A DNA stretch of 64,000 nucleotides from contig OKRB01000001.1 of assembly GCA_900290245.1 (NCBI GenBank), positions 1-64,000 of the forward strand. Reading direction: 5' to 3'. This document shows, piece after piece, positions 7,337-14,331 of the stretch (positions are counted from its first letter, which is position 1; every line of letters begins with the position of its first letter). Under the pieces are notes generated by a model. It did not search any database and was not told the DNA's origin. It saw only the letters and a program-made list of their open reading frames with translations. This DNA is from Candidatus Sulfuritelmatomonas gaucii. GTDB lineage: Bacteria; Acidobacteriota; Terriglobia; Terriglobales; Acidobacteriaceae. The position numbers were made by a program, and so were the translations under genes.

Positions 7337-7421
7337 GCGGAAGTGGTGAAATGGCAAACACACCAGCCTTAGGAGCTGGCGCCCAAAAGGCTTGCGGGTT
7401 CAAGTCCCGCCTTCCGCACCA
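7337..7421 (+). tRNA. tRNA-Leu (anticodon UAG)
   Basis: A class II tRNA with a long variable arm. The 7-bp acceptor stem is GCGGAAG / CTTCCGC, the anticodon stem-loop CCAGC-CTTAGGA-GCTGG gives anticodon TAG, and the T arm contains GGGTTCAAGTCCC. Discriminator A and an encoded CCA end at 7421. It reads CUA and other CUN leucine codons. Confidence 0.95.
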
Positions 7422-7444: not shown

Positions 7445-8317
7445 TCAGTTGCCGGTCCGAACTGGTCCGGTTGTGTCTTTCGCCTGAAAGTTGGGAACAG
7501 TTTCGCTTCGCGCATTCCGTCCGTGCGTCGCGGCGAACCTGTCATCATGCCGATGCGGGATCGCCCAAACCTTGTAACTGTTGAAGAGAAAAATTCCGCC
7601 AAGGAACAGCAACCAAACCCAGAGTGCAAAGCGCAGCGGTCGGCGAGGAACGTGTGTGCTCACCAGCGTTCCCGAAACCGCTCCAGCAACGCCGCCGATG
7701 ATTAACTGCAGCAACAGCGCGGGATCCGTCAGGTGTGCGAACCAGTGCGCGCCGCTGCCGACGAGCGAAACCAGGAAGCCGAAGACGATATCGGTTCCAA
7801 CAACCTGCGCAGGCTCGAGCGGGGTAAGGGCAAGCAACGCGGCGCTGCCGAGAGCGCCCGCTCCGGCCGAAGAAAATCCAACCTCTGCGCCCACCGGAAA
7901 CATCAGCCACGGGAGCAGGGAACTCCGCTTGCGCGCACCGGAATTCTGCCGCATGGGGCGGAATGAATAGAAAAGCTGCCAACTCGCCGTCGCCACCAGG
8001 ATCGCGCCAAGAATCGCGTTGAGCAGGTTTGCCGATCCTGCCGTTACCAGGTGCCGCAGAAGCAGTGACCCCACAAGCACGCCGGGTGCGCCGCCCAGCA
8101 GCATGAAGCCCAGCGTGCGCCATGCCACATTGCCACGCGCGATCTGCGCCGGCGTCAGGATCAGCTTGACCGCCGCTGAAAACGTCAACCCGATACCCAC
8201 TGCGACCGGCGCCGGCACACCAAGAAACAAGACAAGGACAGGCACGGTGATCGTACCGGCGCCTACGCCTGTGAGCGCAATAAACAGCGCGATCAGAAAT
8301 CCGATGATGTAATGCAT
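7445..8317 (-). CDS. TauE/SafE-family membrane exporter (probable sulfite/organosulfur exporter)
   Basis: A 290-residue integral membrane protein with about eight hydrophobic segments in the two-repeat TauE/SafE arrangement. The first repeat starts IIGFLIALFIALTGVGAGT with the family's GxGxGxxxxP-like signature; the second begins near residue 145 (FPVGAEVGFSSAGAG). An Arg/His-rich tail of about 40 residues follows the last membrane segment. SD AAGGGG lies 8 nt before the ATG. It is the last gene after cysD-cysN-cysH, so export of sulfite or another sulfur anion is a reasonable guess, but substrate specificity in this family is poorly predictable. A 20-bp inverted repeat separates it from cysH. 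Confidence 0.82.
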   Translation of the reverse strand: MHYIIGFLIALFIALTGVGAGTITVPVLVLFLGVPAPVAVGIGLTFSAAVKLILTPAQIARGNVAWRTLGFMLLGGAPGVLVGSLLLRHLVTAGSANLLNAILGAILVATASWQLFYSFRPMRQNSGARKRSSLLPWLMFPVGAEVGFSSAGAGALGSAALLALTPLEPAQVVGTDIVFGFLVSLVGSGAHWFAHLTDPALLLQLIIGGVAGAVSGTLVSTHVPRRPLRFALWVWLLFLGGIFLFNSYKVWAIPHRHDDRFAATHGRNARSETVPNFQAKDTTGPVRTGN

Positions 8318-8333: not shown

Positions 8334-8405
8334 CCAGTTCGTAGTTCTTAGTTGCGATCGTCTCAGACGGGAACTGAAGACAGTGAACTAAGAACTATGA
8401 ACTGG
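8334..8405. repeat. 20-bp inverted repeat between cysH and the tauE-like gene
   Basis: Arm 8334-8353 (CCAGTTCGTAGTTCTTAGTT) pairs with 8386-8405 with one mismatch around a 32-nt loop. The distal arm covers the cysH stop codon. There is no T-run, so it is not a classical terminator; it may be an mRNA 3'-protecting hairpin, an attenuator, or a small repetitive element. Confidence 0.8.
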
Positions 8406-9090
8406 CAGCTTCTATGTGGATTCCGCACTCGACCTTGCGCCCTCCCCATCGGCCCGACCGCGGGTCGTTGGGATCGAGCGGCAGCGTGGTACACGGCTCG
8501 CAGCCGATGGAGGTGTAGCCGCGCTCATACAGCGGCAGCAAGGGAATCTGAAGCTGCTCGCACGCGTACCACACGTCGCGCGTTGTCCATTCGGCAAGCG
8601 GCGCAAGTTTCAACACCTGCTTGCCGCCTGGCAGGGCAAACTTCGCGCGCTCTTCCAGAGCCGTGCGGCTGCGCGCCTGCTCGCGACGCAGGCCGGTAAG
8701 CCAAACGCGATACTGCGCCACCGCCTTGAACAACGGCTCAACTTTGCGCAGCCCGCAGCAGCGGTCGGGCGCGCTTTGATACAGCAGGCCGTGTTCGGCC
8801 TCTTGCTCGGCGACTGTTTTTTCCGGCAGCAGGGTGGTCAGATTCAGTCCCCACTCACGCGCAATGCGATCGCGATAGGCGTAAGTTTCGGCAAAGTGGT
8901 AACCGGTGTCGAGGAAAAGAATCGGGATCTGCGGCTCAACTTCGATAGCAAGTTTCGTCAGCAGCACGTCTTCGGCCTGGAAGCTGCAAGTCAGGCAAAC
9001 ATCGCCTGTGCCCGTCACTTCGCGCACCAGCACTGCACGCACCGCATCCAATTTGAGATTCACTTCTGCGCCAATCTCCGCAATGCTCAT
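8395..9090 (-). CDS. cysH: CysH, assimilatory APS reductase (iron-sulfur type)
   Basis: Reduces adenosine 5'-phosphosulfate to sulfite and AMP with thioredoxin. The 231-residue protein has the PP-loop-fold block CSFQAEDVLLTKL (residues 35-47), the cluster ligands RCCGLRKVEPL (C111, C112) and CEPC (C197, C200), and the catalytic C-terminal ECGIH (C222). The CC...CxxC set marks the [4Fe-4S] APS reductases and is absent from PAPS reductases. That implies no APS kinase is needed, which fits the decayed kinase-like tail of the neighbouring CysN. Its ATG overlaps the cysN stop (TAATG). Confidence 0.93.
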   Translation of the reverse strand: MSIAEIGAEVNLKLDAVRAVLVREVTGTGDVCLTCSFQAEDVLLTKLAIEVEPQIPILFLDTGYHFAETYAYRDRIAREWGLNLTTLLPEKTVAEQEAEHGLLYQSAPDRCCGLRKVEPLFKAVAQYRVWLTGLRREQARSRTALEERAKFALPGGKQVLKLAPLAEWTTRDVWYACEQLQIPLLPLYERGYTSIGCEPCTTLPLDPNDPRSGRWGGRKVECGIHIEAASS

Positions 9091-10835
9091 TACAAACCCG
9101 CCTTTTCTGTTGAAGGAAAAACGCCTGCACGTAGCAGTAACTGATGCACGGCCGCCATCGCGTGCATGGCTTCGCTCGCGTCGAGGGTGATTTCAAATCC
9201 GCCTAGGCTAGCCACCAACGTCGTGTCATCACCTGCACGCACCACAAGCCCTAGCAAGCCGGATTGCGATTGGATCGAGGTGACGGCGTGCAAGAGGTCG
9301 GGCTCGAGCAGGAAAACATCACTTTCGCCGTCGATGCGGCACGTGACCGCGCCTACGGCAAACAGCGAACGCTCGACGGCGTCAATCAACGCGGTGGGGC
9401 CGGATAACTCCAGCACACCGCCGCGATGACCCCAGCGCGCCTCGCGCTCGCCGGCGGTCACGCGTCCCCAGGCAGCCGACTCATCATCTTCGCCTCCGGG
9501 AGCCGACCCAAACGCCGCGGTGATCATCCCTGCTGCAACCGTCGCGTTGGTTTCTGGGTCGATCAGAATGAATGCGCCCATCGAGCGATTTTCGCGATAA
9601 AGATCGACCGCGATCGGACGCAGCAGGCTCAGCGAAACTGCTCCGATATCGTTCATGTGCAGCGTGGGCGCCGGTCCATGCTTGAGCGCGGCCAGATCTA
9701 CACGATGATCGATCGACGAAACGAATGCCGGCACAACGTGGCTGGTGTGTTTCAGCAAGTAGCGGCGGTTTGGCTCGAGCGGACGCCGGTCCATCCATAC
9801 CAGCGAAGCTTTTGCGGCGCGCGCAACCGTTGGCGCATGCTGCGCGCCGGCGATCAAATCGCCGCGGCTGATATCGAGTTCGTGATCGAGCACCAATGTG
9901 ACCGACAATGGCGCTTGAGCTGCCTCGAGGTCGCGGTCAAACGTGACGATGCGTTCCACTCTTGCCGTGCGCCCTGAGGGATACACAGTAACCTCATCGC
10001 CCGGGCGAATCGTTCCCGACGCAATCTGCCCAGCGAACCCGCGAAACGTATTATCGGGCCGCAGCACACGCTGCACCGGGAAACGGAAATGCTCGTTGTG
10101 TGTTTGCCGCGCCGAAGGCAGCGATTCCAGCAATTCGAGCAGCGACGGCCCCGGGTACCAGGGCATCGCACCAGGACTGCTCGCAGCGCGATGCACAACG
10201 TTGTCGCCTTTCAATGCGCTGACAGGGATAAAATGCGCCTCGACCGGCGAGCCGGTGTCCGCCGCGATCTGCTCGAGCACGGTGCGGAAATCCGTCTCGA
10301 TCGCGCCAAATGCCGCCTCGTCGTAGCCGATGAGGTCCATTTTGTTCACGGCCACCAGCACGTGGCGCACGCGCAGCAGCGACGCAATATACGCGTGCCG
10401 CCGCGACTGGATCTGCACGCCCTTGCTTGCGTCGATCAACACGATTGCGGCATCGGCTGTGGATGCCCCTGTGGCCATGTTGCGCGTGTACTGCTCGTGG
10501 CCCGGCGTGTCGGCAATGATGAACTTGCGCCGCGCGGTCGAAAAATAACGGTATGCGACGTCGATCGTGATGCCCTGTTCGCGTTCCGCGCGCAGGCCAT
10601 CGGTCAGCAGCGCGAAATCGATCTGTCCCGGTGCGGTCGTGCCTTTGCCTTCAATTGAGCGCACCTGATCTTCGTAGACTGATTGCGTGTCGTAAAGCAG
10701 CCGGCCTATCAGCGTCGACTTGCCGTCGTCTACACTGCCGGCAGTGGAAAAGCGCAGCAAGTCCTTTTCGCGCTCATGCGTCAAAAACTCGCCGATTTCG
10801 AACTCTCTGTTCTCAAACTCTGCCGTAGTCCCCAA
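9090..10835 (-). CDS. cysN: CysN, sulfate adenylyltransferase GTPase subunit with degenerate CysC-like tail
   Basis: GTPase subunit of ATP sulfurylase; it couples GTP hydrolysis to APS formation by CysD. It has the EF-Tu-like G domain with P-loop GSVDDGKST (residues 33-41), REQGITIDVAYRYF, DTPGHEQYTRNM and NKMD, then the beta-barrel domains. Residues about 468-581 resemble a shortened APS kinase: WGHRGGVLELSG matches the start of CysC and GGFEITLDASEA its end. The Walker A (GLSGSGKST in active enzymes) is missing and the middle is cut by roughly 70 residues. TTG at 10835 was chosen because GGAGG lies 5 nt before it; the open frame runs back to a TTG at 10937, which would overlap cysD by about 56 nt. 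The 5' end lies in a purine-rich repeat. Confidence 0.88.
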   Translation of the reverse strand: MGTTAEFENREFEIGEFLTHEREKDLLRFSTAGSVDDGKSTLIGRLLYDTQSVYEDQVRSIEGKGTTAPGQIDFALLTDGLRAEREQGITIDVAYRYFSTARRKFIIADTPGHEQYTRNMATGASTADAAIVLIDASKGVQIQSRRHAYIASLLRVRHVLVAVNKMDLIGYDEAAFGAIETDFRTVLEQIAADTGSPVEAHFIPVSALKGDNVVHRAASSPGAMPWYPGPSLLELLESLPSARQTHNEHFRFPVQRVLRPDNTFRGFAGQIASGTIRPGDEVTVYPSGRTARVERIVTFDRDLEAAQAPLSVTLVLDHELDISRGDLIAGAQHAPTVARAAKASLVWMDRRPLEPNRRYLLKHTSHVVPAFVSSIDHRVDLAALKHGPAPTLHMNDIGAVSLSLLRPIAVDLYRENRSMGAFILIDPETNATVAAGMITAAFGSAPGGEDDESAAWGRVTAGEREARWGHRGGVLELSGPTALIDAVERSLFAVGAVTCRIDGESDVFLLEPDLLHAVTSIQSQSGLLGLVVRAGDDTTLVASLGGFEITLDASEAMHAMAAVHQLLLRAGVFPSTEKAGL

Positions 10836-10840
10836 CCCAA

Positions 10841-10881
10841 CCTCCGCTTTCTCGCTCCCTTGTTCCCTCGGTCCCTGCCTC
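10841..10881 (-). repeat. Purine-rich AAGGGA-type repeat tract
   Basis: The minus strand reads as degenerate units such as GGGACCGAGGGAACAAGGGA between the cysD stop and the proposed cysN start, and supplies the cysN ribosome-binding site. Similar tracts occur at 25354-25413 (inside lptC-lptA) and 53215-53245. Confidence 0.5.
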
Positions 10882-11838
10882 TCAGAAATACCCTTCCCGT
10901 TTCTTGATCTCCATCGAGCCTTCCTGGTCGTGGTCAATCGCGCGATTCGCCCGCTCTGACGAGCGAAATGAAATCAGCTCCGCAATAATGGCGGGAATGG
11001 TATCAGCGTCAGAGCGAATGGCGCCGGTGCAAGGGCTGCAACCCAGCGAACGCAGCCGGCACTTCACCATCTGTGGCTTCTCGCCGGGCAACGCGACAAA
11101 GCTCTGCTCAACGGGCAACAGCGCCTCGCCACGTACAAACATGGGTCGCTCCTTGGCGAAGTAGAGATCCACGACCGGAATCTTTTCTTCGTGGATGTAT
11201 TGCCACACATCCATCTCCGTCCAGTTTGAGAGCGGAAACACGCGAATGCTTTCGCCGGGATGGATGCGTGCGTTGTAGAGATTCCACAGTTCGGGCCGCT
11301 GGTTTTTCGGATCCCACTGACCGGCCGTATCGCGAAACGAATAGATTCGCTCCTTGGCGCGCGACTTTTCTTCGTCGCGGCGCGCACCGCCAAAGGCCGC
11401 GTCGAAGTTGTAGTGGCGCAACGCATCGAGCAGCGCCTGCGTCTTCAGTAGGCCGCAGCAGCGCTTGGTATCGAGCACAACAGGATTGGTTCCCGCGGCG
11501 ATGGCCGGCTCATTGCGCCACACCAGCAGCTCCGCGCCTACCCGACGCGCCATCGCATCACGAAACGCGAGCATCTCAGCGAACTTGAAGCCAGTATCGA
11601 TGTGCAGCAGTGGGAAGGGAATCGGGGCGGGATAGAAGGCCTTCTGCGCAAGCCGCAGCATCACCGAGGAATCTTTGCCGATGGAGTAAAGCATCACCGG
11701 ACGCTCGAACTCCGACGCGACTTCGCGCAGAATGTGAATGCTCTCCGCCTCAAGCAGGCGAAGGTGGTTGACCCGCGAGGTCGCGGAAATGCTGTGACGT
11801 GGCGGGGACAGGGATAAATCGTTTTCGGCGACCGGCAT
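10882..11838 (-). CDS. cysD: CysD, sulfate adenylyltransferase subunit 2
   Basis: Catalytic subunit of ATP sulfurylase: sulfate + ATP gives APS + PPi. The 318-residue protein has the PP-loop [10 protein letters not shown] (residues 51-60), [13 protein letters not shown], the [18 protein letters not shown] block, [13 protein letters not shown] and the C-terminal [10 protein letters not shown]. All are characteristic of CysD and set it apart from CysH. The ATG is preceded by GAGAGG, which lies inside a small hairpin (11839-11856). First structural gene of the cysDNH operon; transcription is proposed to start about 180 nt upstream, after a Cys-rich leader peptide. Confidence 0.95.
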
Positions 11839-11856
11839 GATGACCTCTCAGGTATC
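11839..11856 (-). promoter_or_regulatory. Hairpin over the cysD ribosome-binding site
   Basis: The minus-strand sequence GATACCTGAGAGGTCATC can fold as ACCT/AGGT with flanking GAT/ATC, placing the GAGAGG Shine-Dalgarno within loop and stem immediately before the ATG. It could limit cysD translation until upstream translation or structure changes. Weak as a stand-alone stem. Confidence 0.4.
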
Positions 11857-11880
11857 GGGGAGATGCTGAAGGCCGGTGCG

Positions 11881-11924
11881 CACAAAGACAAACCCGGCGT
11901 TCAGCTACGGGTGCGTCTTCTGTG
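11881..11924 (-). promoter_or_regulatory. Leader hairpin between Cys-rich leader peptide and cysD
   Basis: On the minus strand CACAGAAGAC pairs with GTCTTTGTG (nine pairs, one bulged G) and, inside that, ACCCG with CGGGT, leaving an 11-nt loop. It begins 23 nt after the leader-peptide stop. There is no U-run after it, so if it regulates it more likely acts on translation or through Rho than as an intrinsic terminator. Confidence 0.5.
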
Positions 11925-11947
11925 TCTATTGTGCTGAGGAGAAGAGA

Positions 11948-12016
11948 CTAGCGGCGACACCCGTCGAAGATGTTCGACAGGCAACAACAACCGCGGATTT
12001 GCAGGGTGCAAACCAT
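11948..12016 (-). CDS. Cysteine-rich leader peptide of the sulfate-assimilation operon
   Basis: A 22-codon frame, too short for usual gene calling, beginning MVCTLQIRGCCCL and ending DGCRR-stop. Five of 22 residues are Cys (3, 10, 11, 12, 20), with three consecutive Cys codons TGT TGT TGC. The ATG at 12016 lies 10 nt after the -10 TACGAT, so it would be the first AUG of the transcript with almost no leader. An in-frame ATG 12 nt upstream overlaps the -10 element and is unlikely to be transcribed. Polycysteine leader peptides controlling cys operons by ribosome-mediated attenuation are known in actinobacteria. The position ahead of cysD, the Cys run, and the two downstream hairpins suggest the same logic here. 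Expression is inferred, not shown. Confidence 0.7.
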   Translation of the reverse strand: MVCTLQIRGCCCLSNIFDGCRR

Positions 12017-12026
12017 GTGTCGAGTC

Positions 12027-12055
12027 ATCGTAGCAAATCACATTCGCGGGCGCAA
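12027..12055 (-). promoter_or_regulatory. Promoter of the cys leader-cysDNH operon
   Basis: The -10 TACGAT (12032-12027 on the minus strand) is preceded by TGC, giving an extended -10. TTGCGC (12055-12050) sits 17 nt upstream as a partial -35. Confidence 0.6.
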
Positions 12056-12087
12056 GCGAACGAAACCGCGAGCGACGCGTTTCTCGC

Positions 12088-14331
12088 CTATTTCAGCCGC
12101 GCGCCCAGCGGCACCTCTTCGAGAAATCCCGCCAACACGGGCGCGCCGCCTTCAAGCGATGCGGCCAGCAGCATTCCGTTCGACACCAGGCCGCGCATCT
12201 TGCGCGGAGCCAGATTGGCAACGATGACAATCTTTCGGCCAATAAGCTTTTCGGGTTCATAGTATTGCGCAATACCAGCCAAAATCTGCCGCTTCTCATA
12301 ACCGAGGTCGACCTCAAGGCGCAGCAGCTTGTCGGCCTTCGGTACGCGCTCCGCGACCAGGATCTGCGCAACGCACAGGTCGACCTTGGCGAAATCATCG
12401 ATGGTAATCTGCTGCGTCTGCGGCGTGGCAGCCTCTTGACCTTGCGCTGCGGGAGCAGGTGTCACAGGGGGCGCCAGGGGAGCCTCGGCAGGCGCGGGCA
12501 CGGGCGTGGAGTTCAAGCGGCTGCTGGCCAATGGTGTGGGCACCTGGTCGACCTTTGCGGTGTTCAAAGGCTGCTCGGGATTTGCCGGTCCGGCCGCGGT
12601 GGGTGTCAGCTTTTGATGTGCGCGAACTGAGGTTTTGTCTGTGCCAGTTGTGGGGTTCACGGACGTCGCCGCCGGAGCGTGCGAAGGGGCAACGATTTCG
12701 TCTTTGCTCGCGGCCTCGACTGCCGTGCGATTGTTCTGGTCCTCAAGATTCTGCATGCGTTCGATTGCGTCCTTTTCCGCGCGAGGAAACAGCGGCGCAG
12801 GCTCACCGAATTTCGTGCCCGGCTTCAAGCCGCCCCACGCGAGATCCTTCAAGAATCCATTCCCGGCAGCGTCTGCAAGCTCGCCCTGCCCGAGTTGTTG
12901 CCAAACTTTCGCTGCGGCATCGGGCAATATGGGAAACACCAATGCCGTGATGATGCGGATGGCCTCGGCAGCGGTTGCCAGCACGCGCGCCTGCAGCTTC
13001 CTATGGTCGGCGTCGGTTCGATCCACCGGCTTCTTCCAGGGAGCATTGGCCGTCAGGTAGCCGTCGGTCCCGGCCACCAGGAGCCACAGGTTCTTCAAGG
13101 CTTCGGAGAAATCTAGCTCATCAAAAGCTGGACCAAACGAAGCAATTGCGCCCACCGCGCTCGCGCGCAATGCCGCTTCGGCTTGCGTCTCTGCTCCGGC
13201 TTCAGGCACCTCGCCGGCAAAGTACTTGTGCACCATGTTCACTACGCGGCTCACAAGATTGCCGTATCCGTTGGCCAAGTCTCCGTTGTAGCGCTGCACC
13301 AGCGCATCAAACGAGAAGTTGCCATCCTGCCCGAAGGGAATTTCGCGCAGAAGGAAGTACCGCAACGTATCGGCGCCAAGCACGTCCTGCACGGTCTCAG
13401 CCCGCACAATGTTGCCTCGCGACTTCGACATCTTTCCCTGGTCGAAGAGCAGCCAGCCGTTGGCCCGCACCGATCGCGGCACGGGAATGCCGGCCGCCAT
13501 CAGGAACGCCGGCCAGTAGACGCAATGGAAGCGGCTGATCTCTTTACCGATCAGGTGAATGTCCGCCGGCCAGAATTTCCTGAACTTCTCGTCGTCCTCG
13601 GAGCCATATCCAAGAGCAGTAATATAGTTGGCCAGCGCGTCGAGCCAAACATACACCACGTGCTTTTCGTCGCCAGGCACGGGAATGCCCCACGAAAAAC
13701 TGGTGCGGCTCACCGAAAGATCCTTGAGGCCGCTGCGCACAAAGCTGATCACTTCGCGCCGCGTCGACTCCGGCGCCATGAATCCCGGATTCGCCTCGTA
13801 AAACTCCAGCAGCCTGCGCTCAAACGCCGAAAGCTTGAAGAAGTAGTTCTCTTCGCTTACTGTTTCGGTGGGCCGGCCGCAATCGGGGCAGGGCGTACCG
13901 GGAGGGCCGTCAACATACGCTTCATCGGAGACGCAGTATTGCCCCGTGTACGAGCCCTTGTAGATGAATCCACGATCGCGCAGTGTAGCGAACAGCTTCT
14001 GCACGCCGCGCCTGTGGCGCTCCTCTGTGGTGCGAATGAAGTCGTCGTAGGTCAACCCCAGCCGGTCCCATAACCCACGAAATTCCGCCGCAACCTGGGT
14101 CGCGAACTCCTGAGGCGTGCATCCGGCGAGCTTCGCCGATCGCTCAATTTTCTGGCCGTGCTCGTCGGTTCCGGTCAGGAACCACGTCTCGATGCCCAGC
14201 GCCCTCTTGCGTCGCGCAATGGCGTCGCACACGATCGTCGAGTAGGCATGGCCCAGGTGCGGCCGCGCGTTTACGTAGTAAATCGGCGTGGTCAGATAAA
14301 AACGATTTGGATGCGGACTGGTTTCGGTCAT
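12088..14331 (-). CDS. metG: Methionyl-tRNA synthetase with C-terminal tRNA-binding domain
   Basis: Charges tRNA-Met with methionine. The class I HIGH signature is PHLGHAYS (H25, H28) and KMSKS is at about residues 300-304 (GKMSKSRGNIV). A zinc-knuckle motif CPDCGRPTE lies near residue 140, and the alpha-helical anticodon domain follows. The last ~105 residues (IDDFAKVDLCVAQI to the end) are an EMAP-II-like dimerising tRNA-binding domain. Between them, from about residue 530 to 640, lies an unusually long Ala/Pro/Thr-rich, low-complexity linker. 747 residues in all; other MetG proteins with this domain are about 650-680. No SD is obvious; a TAAGAT -10 candidate is about 50 nt upstream. Confidence 0.95.
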   Translation of the reverse strand: MTETSPHPNRFYLTTPIYYVNARPHLGHAYSTIVCDAIARRKRALGIETWFLTGTDEHGQKIERSAKLAGCTPQEFATQVAAEFRGLWDRLGLTYDDFIRTTEERHRRGVQKLFATLRDRGFIYKGSYTGQYCVSDEAYVDGPPGTPCPDCGRPTETVSEENYFFKLSAFERRLLEFYEANPGFMAPESTRREVISFVRSGLKDLSVSRTSFSWGIPVPGDEKHVVYVWLDALANYITALGYGSEDDEKFRKFWPADIHLIGKEISRFHCVYWPAFLMAAGIPVPRSVRANGWLLFDQGKMSKSRGNIVRAETVQDVLGADTLRYFLLREIPFGQDGNFSFDALVQRYNGDLANGYGNLVSRVVNMVHKYFAGEVPEAGAETQAEAALRASAVGAIASFGPAFDELDFSEALKNLWLLVAGTDGYLTANAPWKKPVDRTDADHRKLQARVLATAAEAIRIITALVFPILPDAAAKVWQQLGQGELADAAGNGFLKDLAWGGLKPGTKFGEPAPLFPRAEKDAIERMQNLEDQNNRTAVEAASKDEIVAPSHAPAATSVNPTTGTDKTSVRAHQKLTPTAAGPANPEQPLNTAKVDQVPTPLASSRLNSTPVPAPAEAPLAPPVTPAPAAQGQEAATPQTQQITIDDFAKVDLCVAQILVAERVPKADKLLRLEVDLGYEKRQILAGIAQYYEPEKLIGRKIVIVANLAPRKMRGLVSNGMLLAASLEGGAPVLAGFLEEVPLGARLK

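Follow-up and report, generated by a model that had tools for sequence, protein, structure and literature searches.

The window, the whole 64,000-nucleotide stretch from Candidatus Sulfuritelmatomonas gaucii analysed here, carries genes of sulfate assimilation on its minus strand. On that strand metG ends at 12088 and is followed, from 11838 on, by cysD, cysN, cysH and a TauE/SafE permease gene. The gap between metG and cysD holds an extended -10 element (12035-12027) and a short leader open reading frame (ORF) that is rich in Cys codons and has its ATG 10 nt downstream of this element. The window's clade, as the term is used below, consists of thirty distinct relatives whose leader peptides have a common ending around Asp-Gly-Cys. 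The main features are as follows:

10882..11838, minus strand: cysD, sulfate adenylyltransferase small subunit, first gene of the operon (NF009214 and TIGR02039 over cut-off)
9090..10937, minus strand: cysN, large subunit (TIGR02034 and NF003478 over cut-off)
8395..9090, minus strand: cysH-type (P)APS reductase (NF002537 over cut-off)
7445..8317, minus strand: TauE/SafE permease, probable last gene of the operon (PF01925)
12027..12035, minus strand: extended -10 element TGCTACGAT (TG n TACGAT), from the sequence; 29 of the 30 clade members match TGnTAnnnT
11948..12016, minus strand: leader ORF MVCTLQIRGCCCLSNIFDGCRR with its stop codon, a conserved frame, putatively leaderless or with a 5' UTR of a few nt
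11981..11989, minus strand: putative regulatory Cys codons TGT TGT TGC; TGTTGT invariant in the 30 sequences of alignment A1
11844..11849, minus strand: Shine-Dalgarno (SD) sequence of cysD, GAGAGG, from the sequence

The start of cysN as listed overlaps cysD and is probably too far upstream. At the Rfam gathering score, the whole window returned only a tRNA, and seven leader loci gave no match; a tRNA-Leu gene lies on the plus strand at 7337-7421, just past the end of the cys operon. The named neighbours are Acidobacteriaceae MAGs, Terracidiphilus, Acidicapsa, Silvibacterium and Edaphobacter, a company that would put this genome among the Acidobacteriaceae.

The leader ORF comprises 22 codons, five of them for Cys, and ends with the stop codon at 11950-11948. 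The same frame is also listed from an upstream ATG at 12028, which overlaps the -10 element, so that 12016 is the sensible leader start. A two-hexamer sigma-70 site was not found by a generic scan of 11800-12100. In all 30 window-clade sequences the -10 element precedes the start by 8-11 nt (29 by script, L026 by eye; L026 is the sole member without TGnTAnnnT and has TATAAT). This spacing is too short for a Shine-Dalgarno site, and the leader mRNA should therefore be leaderless or nearly so. Leaderless genes average 13.3% in three Acidobacteria genomes, according to the part of a computed survey that concerns them (PMC3160421). A preliminary description, made from the letters of this DNA, had placed the extended -10 element, the ATG at 12016, the 22 codons with five Cys and the TGT TGT TGC run at 11989-11981, and all these coordinates hold. 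Its leaderless start agrees with the spacing kept throughout the clade, from which we infer the start of transcription.

Distribution of the leader and its Cys codons

Regions upstream of cysD were gathered without regard to the leader. Among the matches listed there were 128 family loci, of which four near-repeats (90%, ungapped over 200 nt) were dropped and 124 kept, with near-relatives remaining among them. The 25 listed cysD matches left out of the locus set were the 22 weakest, without a locus, the partial genes G258 and G283, and G221, which resembled a repeat of G150. To count as a leader, an ORF had to be 10-40 codons long and contain three or more Cys codons, two of them adjacent. Among the matches listed, such an ORF occurred in 103 of the 124 family cysD upstreams and three Cys in a row in 69 of the 124; here as in all locus counts, the loci are related and do not represent independent events. 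Dinucleotide shuffles of the same DNA gave the Cys-Cys ORF in 197/3720 cases (5.3%) and the three-Cys run in 20/3720 (0.5%), and the corresponding values for random genomic stretches, taken from 16 loci named Acidobacteriaceae or Acidobacteria, were 133/3443 (3.9%) and 16/3443 (0.5%). The other 21 loci had no such leader, and looser rules led to only one of them, L149 with two adjacent Cys, being taken as a likely leader. A further 28 loci were gathered later from the order, three of them in genomes already used; the Cys-Cys ORF was present in 28/28, including two genomes (L218 and L219) that belong to a different family of this order. Leaders of the cultured relatives Acidicapsa dinghuensis (L029) and Edaphobacter lichenicola (L039) are also among those collected. 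The Cys-Cys ORF of L231 sits far upstream and looks like chance. In the few listed loci from Bryobacterales and other phyla, reading by eye gave no convincing leader. The preliminary description had made its proposal depend on a frame shared with relatives, and the frequency of 103/124 stands against 3.9-5.3% by chance; the leader ORF is real and conserved beyond chance.

Of the 30 members of the window's clade, 29 have an in-frame start codon (GTG in L125) at a distance of 51 or 54 nt upstream of the Asp-Gly-Cys end. The exception is L111, in which one base was lost behind the Cys codons, leaving the peptide end altered and the stem of segments 1 and 2 (see below) intact. In two cases the public MAG name does not fit the content: L038, named "Rhodanobacteraceae", has an Edaphobacter-like cysD leader, and L043, named Bordetella parapertussis, has a CysD 73% identical to this acidobacterial CysD.

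The Cys codons of the leaders differ from those of the genes. The 103 leaders contain 435 UGU and 156 UGC codons, and six genes of the window contain 1 and 25. For the 48 family loci long enough to hold the gene, the cysD genes have 17 UGU and 200 UGC, and the leaders found there 146 and 50. Runs of seldom-used codons are known in some other leader peptides. A run of the seldom-used UGU fits a sensing role, although the same letters may also be held in place by base pairing of the leader RNA. The leaders offer a way to test whether cysteine sensing is sharpened by rare UGU codons.

Competing RNA pairings and terminators

Downstream of the Cys run, five segments with alternative partners can be drawn in the leader RNA:

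11973..11981, minus strand: segment 1 (CCTGTCGAA), partner of segment 2, next to the Cys codons on their 3' side (alignment)
11957..11968, minus strand: segment 2 (TTCGACGGGTGT), within the leader ORF, partner of 1 or 3 (alignment)
11907..11914, minus strand: segment 3 (GCACCCGT), 5' arm of the terminator-like hairpin and alternative partner of 2 (alignment, model)
11887..11917, minus strand: terminator-like hairpin 3:4 (GACGCACCCG..CGGGTTTGTC), U-rich run going on as TTTGTG to 11881
11894..11905, minus strand: segment 4 (GCTGAACGCCGG), partner of segment 5, with the remainder of the hairpin arm after it (alignment)
11865..11876, minus strand: segment 5 (CCGGCCTTCAGC), conserved in most A1 sequences

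The pairings 1:2, 2:3, 3:4 and 4:5 can each form in the window (-12.8, -10.6, -12.6 and -19.0 kcal/mol), and neighbouring ones exclude each other. The pairing 4:5 (11865-11905) is the strongest of the four and is kept in much of the window's clade. The preliminary description had drawn a hairpin at 11881-11924, which can form and has its core at 11917-11887, and had overlooked 1:2 and 2:3, the core of the proposed switch.

Both alternatives are well kept in the alignments. The 1:2 helix is paired in 93.7% of alignment cells and the 2:3 core helix in 92.5%. In alignment A2, 2:3 with the inner stem reaches 86.6% of cells paired against 27.8-50.2% when slid, and 1:2 plus 3:4 likewise 86.6% against 34.8-51.6%. 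Column shuffles in the window's clade matched 2:3 in 15/500 for paired cells, 3/500 for pair types and 220/500 for the covariation score, which lends weak support; for 1:2 plus 3:4 the same three measures gave 53/500, 250/500 and 336/500 and hence no support. Compensatory changes in this clade are few, too few to prove the helices, and it is conservation rather than covariation that carries the proposed helices there.

The geometry was considered for a ribosome whose footprint is assumed to extend 12 nt past the first base of the A-site codon. A ribosome at the second Cys codon would then reach about 11974 and hide segment 1, and one at the stop codon would hide segment 2. In a model with the ribosome on the Cys run and the RNA made up to the 3:4 loop, segment 3 of the window paired upstream with a probability of 1.00 (shuffled mean 0.45). 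The 23 window-clade leaders contained in the 124-locus set averaged 0.99, compared with 0.36 for shuffled tails, and all 23 reached at least 0.5; in 35 leaders with strong terminators the mean was 0.69 against 0.48, and 28 of them were at least 0.5. An equilibrium model with the whole terminator present gave a mean of 0.95 with the ribosome at the stop codon and 0.79 at the Cys run, with a drop of at least 0.3 in only 8 of the 35. The effect of ribosome position at equilibrium is thus small, and the model needs folding during transcription, on which trp operon attenuation likewise depends. The loci's own 2:3 duplexes average -17.0, compared with -14.2 for swapped and -13.7 for shuffled arms, and the own duplex beats 95% of swaps in only 6/35 and 95% of shuffles in 11/35; this modest separation is probably due to the CCC/GGG shared by all loci. 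By computation, a mutually exclusive antiterminator and terminator are so placed that a stalled ribosome favours the antiterminator, an effect weak at equilibrium.

Terminators between leader ORF and cysD were sought with a strict filter that required a hairpin at least as stable as -12 kcal/mol and, after it, a strong U-tract. Strong intrinsic terminators were present in 35 of the 103 leaders (for example L166, L011, L014 and L171), namely in 35/80 outside the window's clade and 0/23 inside it, compared with 7/1030 shuffles. The generic scan of 11800-12100 likewise gave no terminator on the minus strand and one terminator-like site on the opposite strand. The window's 3:4 hairpin lies at a place comparable to the terminators of the other clades and has a U-rich, interrupted tail (TTTGTCTTTGTG), with which it fails the strict filter. 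The earlier statement that a U-run is lacking therefore stands for the window's clade insofar as there is no clean U-tract, with the qualification that the hairpin tail is U-rich; it does not extend to other clades of the family, where strong U-tracts occur.

Proposed attenuation and its alternatives

We propose that 12035-11865 is a cysteine-responsive, ribosome-mediated attenuator of the trp/his type, which controls the cysDNH operon and is read by a leaderless leader peptide (probability about 0.72). The reading draws on the sequence, that is, on the conserved frame, the Cys run, the codon bias, the -10 spacing, the competing pairings and the terminators of other clades. In trp, his and leu leader-peptide attenuators, the regulatory codons are followed by the alternatives 1:2, 2:3 and 3:4 before the operon. 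The present leader is arranged likewise, its repeated end-product codons standing ahead of the operon that makes this product; it differs in the sensing of cysteine, the leaderless start and the Acidobacteriota host, and the window's clade adds the 4:5 pairing and has an imperfect U-tract. Trp leader-peptide attenuators are also described for actinobacteria in a passage of PMC1262725.

RNA polymerase would start at the AUG at 12016 or a few bases before, and a ribosome would follow it. With ample Cys-tRNA, the ribosome would reach the stop codon and cover segment 2, so that 3 could pair with 4 and transcription would end early. When Cys-tRNA is scarce, the ribosome, presumably translating a leaderless message, would wait on the Cys codons and cover segment 1; 2:3 would then pair before segment 4 is made, 4 could pair with 5, and the polymerase would continue into cysD. 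In the window's own clade, termination would have to take place at 3:4 with its imperfect U-tract.

The same leader could act in other ways. In translational attenuation, as in mycobacterial poly-Cys leaders, the leader RNA would mask the ribosome-binding site of cysD and a stalled ribosome would free it. The leaderless poly-Cys ORF before cys genes recalls M. smegmatis, whose cysteine genes a passage of PMC13236596 puts under translation attenuation, and the lack of a strict terminator in the window's clade would suit this mechanism, but the modelled SD accessibility hardly responds to the ribosome: it is 0.41 at the Cys run and 0.40 at the stop codon in the 23 window-clade leaders (one up and one down by at least 0.2) and 0.53 and 0.52 in the 35 strong-terminator leaders (three rise, two fall). 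Together with the strong terminators elsewhere in the family and an SD hairpin that is not conserved, this makes translational attenuation quite improbable. The hairpin in question is a 4-bp ACCT/AGGT stem over the SD (11839-11856), part of the preliminary description; it can be drawn, was not conserved by eye in alignment A1 and was dropped. In the alignment of cysD upstream regions that had been proposed as a check, the Cys-run frame and the 3:4 hairpin were kept and this SD hairpin was not.

Rho could also attenuate the operon, if a ribosome finishing the leader ORF left the RNA open to the factor and a stalled one shielded or refolded it. Rho has been suggested for mycobacterial cys leaders in a passage of PMC1262725, and the U-tract of the window's clade is degenerate; since none of its 23 leaders has a clean U-tract, Rho may lend help in that clade. 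Rho as the mechanism would need neither the conserved competition of 2:3 with 3:4 nor the intrinsic terminators that other clades have at a corresponding position, and we consider it unlikely. The earlier preference for a translational or Rho-linked mechanism thus gives way, with SD accessibility the same in both states and strong terminators in 35/80 leaders of other clades, and trp-type transcription attenuation is the likeliest reading, rather than SD masking or Rho. That the ORF encodes a functional Cys-rich small protein, binding metal or serving redox, with cysD control incidental, is hardly credible. Several Cys and an SNIFDGC-like end are conserved within the window's clade, but this end coincides with the 1:2 stem, which L111 keeps despite its altered peptide end; moreover, peptides of different clades vary widely outside the Cys residues, and such ORFs precede two kinds of sulfur operon. 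The original suggestion of a cysteine-sensing, ribosome-mediated attenuator in Acidobacteria is itself supported by the conserved Cys frame and the competing hairpins.

Leaderless poly-Cys ORFs reportedly precede cysteine genes in mycobacteria, in several operons of one mycobacterial genome. The acidobacterial leaders share this design, also with several operons per genome; the likeness noted here is one of design. The mycobacterial polycysteine attenuators with leaderless short ORFs are attributed to Canestrari et al. 2020 in passages of PMC13236596 and PMC9094748, and the cysteine genes of M. smegmatis are described as under translation attenuation in the former. In contrast, modelled SD accessibility is unchanged here, and the acidobacterial family, in another phylum, has intrinsic terminators and competing antiterminators. 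Poly-Cys leaders have also been predicted in Mycobacterium, Propionibacterium and Bifidobacterium, where, according to passages of PMC1262725, they lack obvious terminators and no conserved hairpins capable of termination were found. These likewise have Cys codon runs in short ORFs ahead of cys or cbs genes; as described there, their runs lie near the stop codon, whereas the longest run of the window's ORF lies in the middle and is followed by segments 1-5. In the open-licence literature we found no description of a cysteine attenuator of this sort in Acidobacteria, in agreement with the preliminary description; Lopatovskaya et al. 2010, cited in a passage of PMC4833913, could hold related predictions. 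The attenuators named in the relevant part of a regulatory-RNA survey are those for His, Leu, Thr, Trp, Ile/Val and Phe, with Cys not among them (PMC3766115), and a passage of a 2010 screen states that hardly any of the attenuators predicted in phyla like the Acidobacteria are tied to a function (PMC2965389).

Cys leaders at further genes

A covariance model built on the window's clade detects the leader once in the window's own genome; at E 0.01 it hits 32 of 300 family genomes, several of these matches being weak. Two genomes, G183 and G169, have the leader a second time, ahead of a gene of the siroheme sulfite/nitrite reductase type. The best NCBIfam models for these genes are nitrite reductase and NirA, both below cut-off, and the same holds for the reductase homologue of the window's own genome (L289, on contig C119). 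The L289 leader reads MGAMTCCRCCCMPSARHRTRV and is directly preceded by a -10-like hexamer; its GC-rich hairpin, after which comes TTTCATTT, falls slightly under the strict terminator limit. Including these three, a Cys leader lies upstream of 26/30 family reductase homologues, and 19 of the 26 have strong terminators. A set of 20 reductase homologues was chosen from genomes in which cysD had no match, and 17 of them carried such leaders, one with a run of eight Cys; neither the 30 nor the 20 loci were thinned for near-relatives. In L318, from a genome without a cysD match, the leader ORF upstream of the siroheme reductase gene has eight consecutive Cys codons (MCRCTCCCCCCCCAFVSSDARGLLT) and is also readable from an earlier start. 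The substrate of the reductase may be sulfite or nitrite, and a cysteine leader would speak for sulfite. Where cysDNH and siroheme reductase leaders occur in the same genome, they probably constitute a cysteine regulon.

For cysK, a similar upstream ORF was found in 4/25 family loci with a looser filter in which two Cys suffice, and two of these have five or six Cys in a row (a 26th locus was discarded for running into a contig end, and for four of the 25 no start codon was located). The window's own genome has, on contig C87, an ORF with three Cys in a row upstream of cysK (L323:1336-1458); a Cys-Cys ORF lies upstream of two of its 10 PALP-family genes, cysK being one of the two. The place of cysK as a third member is only a lead.

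More broadly, and tentatively, with the odds somewhat against so wide a reading, the Acidobacteriaceae may have a cysteine regulon governed by ribosome stalling that comprises cysDNH, the siroheme sulfite/nitrite reductase and perhaps, in some genomes, cysK. In each case a leaderless, UGU-rich leader of its own would feed a full terminator switch of the trp type, of separate origin from the translational form in mycobacteria; in the window's clade the switch would have grown to five segments (1:2/3:4 against 2:3/4:5) and would manage with little U-tract. The proposed attenuator itself may indicate how abundant soil bacteria tune sulfate assimilation, and it suggests that a leaderless start can serve trp-type coupling.

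Two copies of the leader differ from the usual arrangement. The second copy in G183 (L268:975-1303, contig C1) brings an apparent truncated 5' end of cysD ahead of the siroheme reductase gene, as if leader and cysD start had been copied as a cassette. In G177, which belongs to the window's genus and has no cysD match, a diverged leader (L270:975-1126, contig C2), possibly a relic, stands before another ORF and still contains a Cys-Cys ORF (MSRLYPSRACCRSNHFGGWPL).
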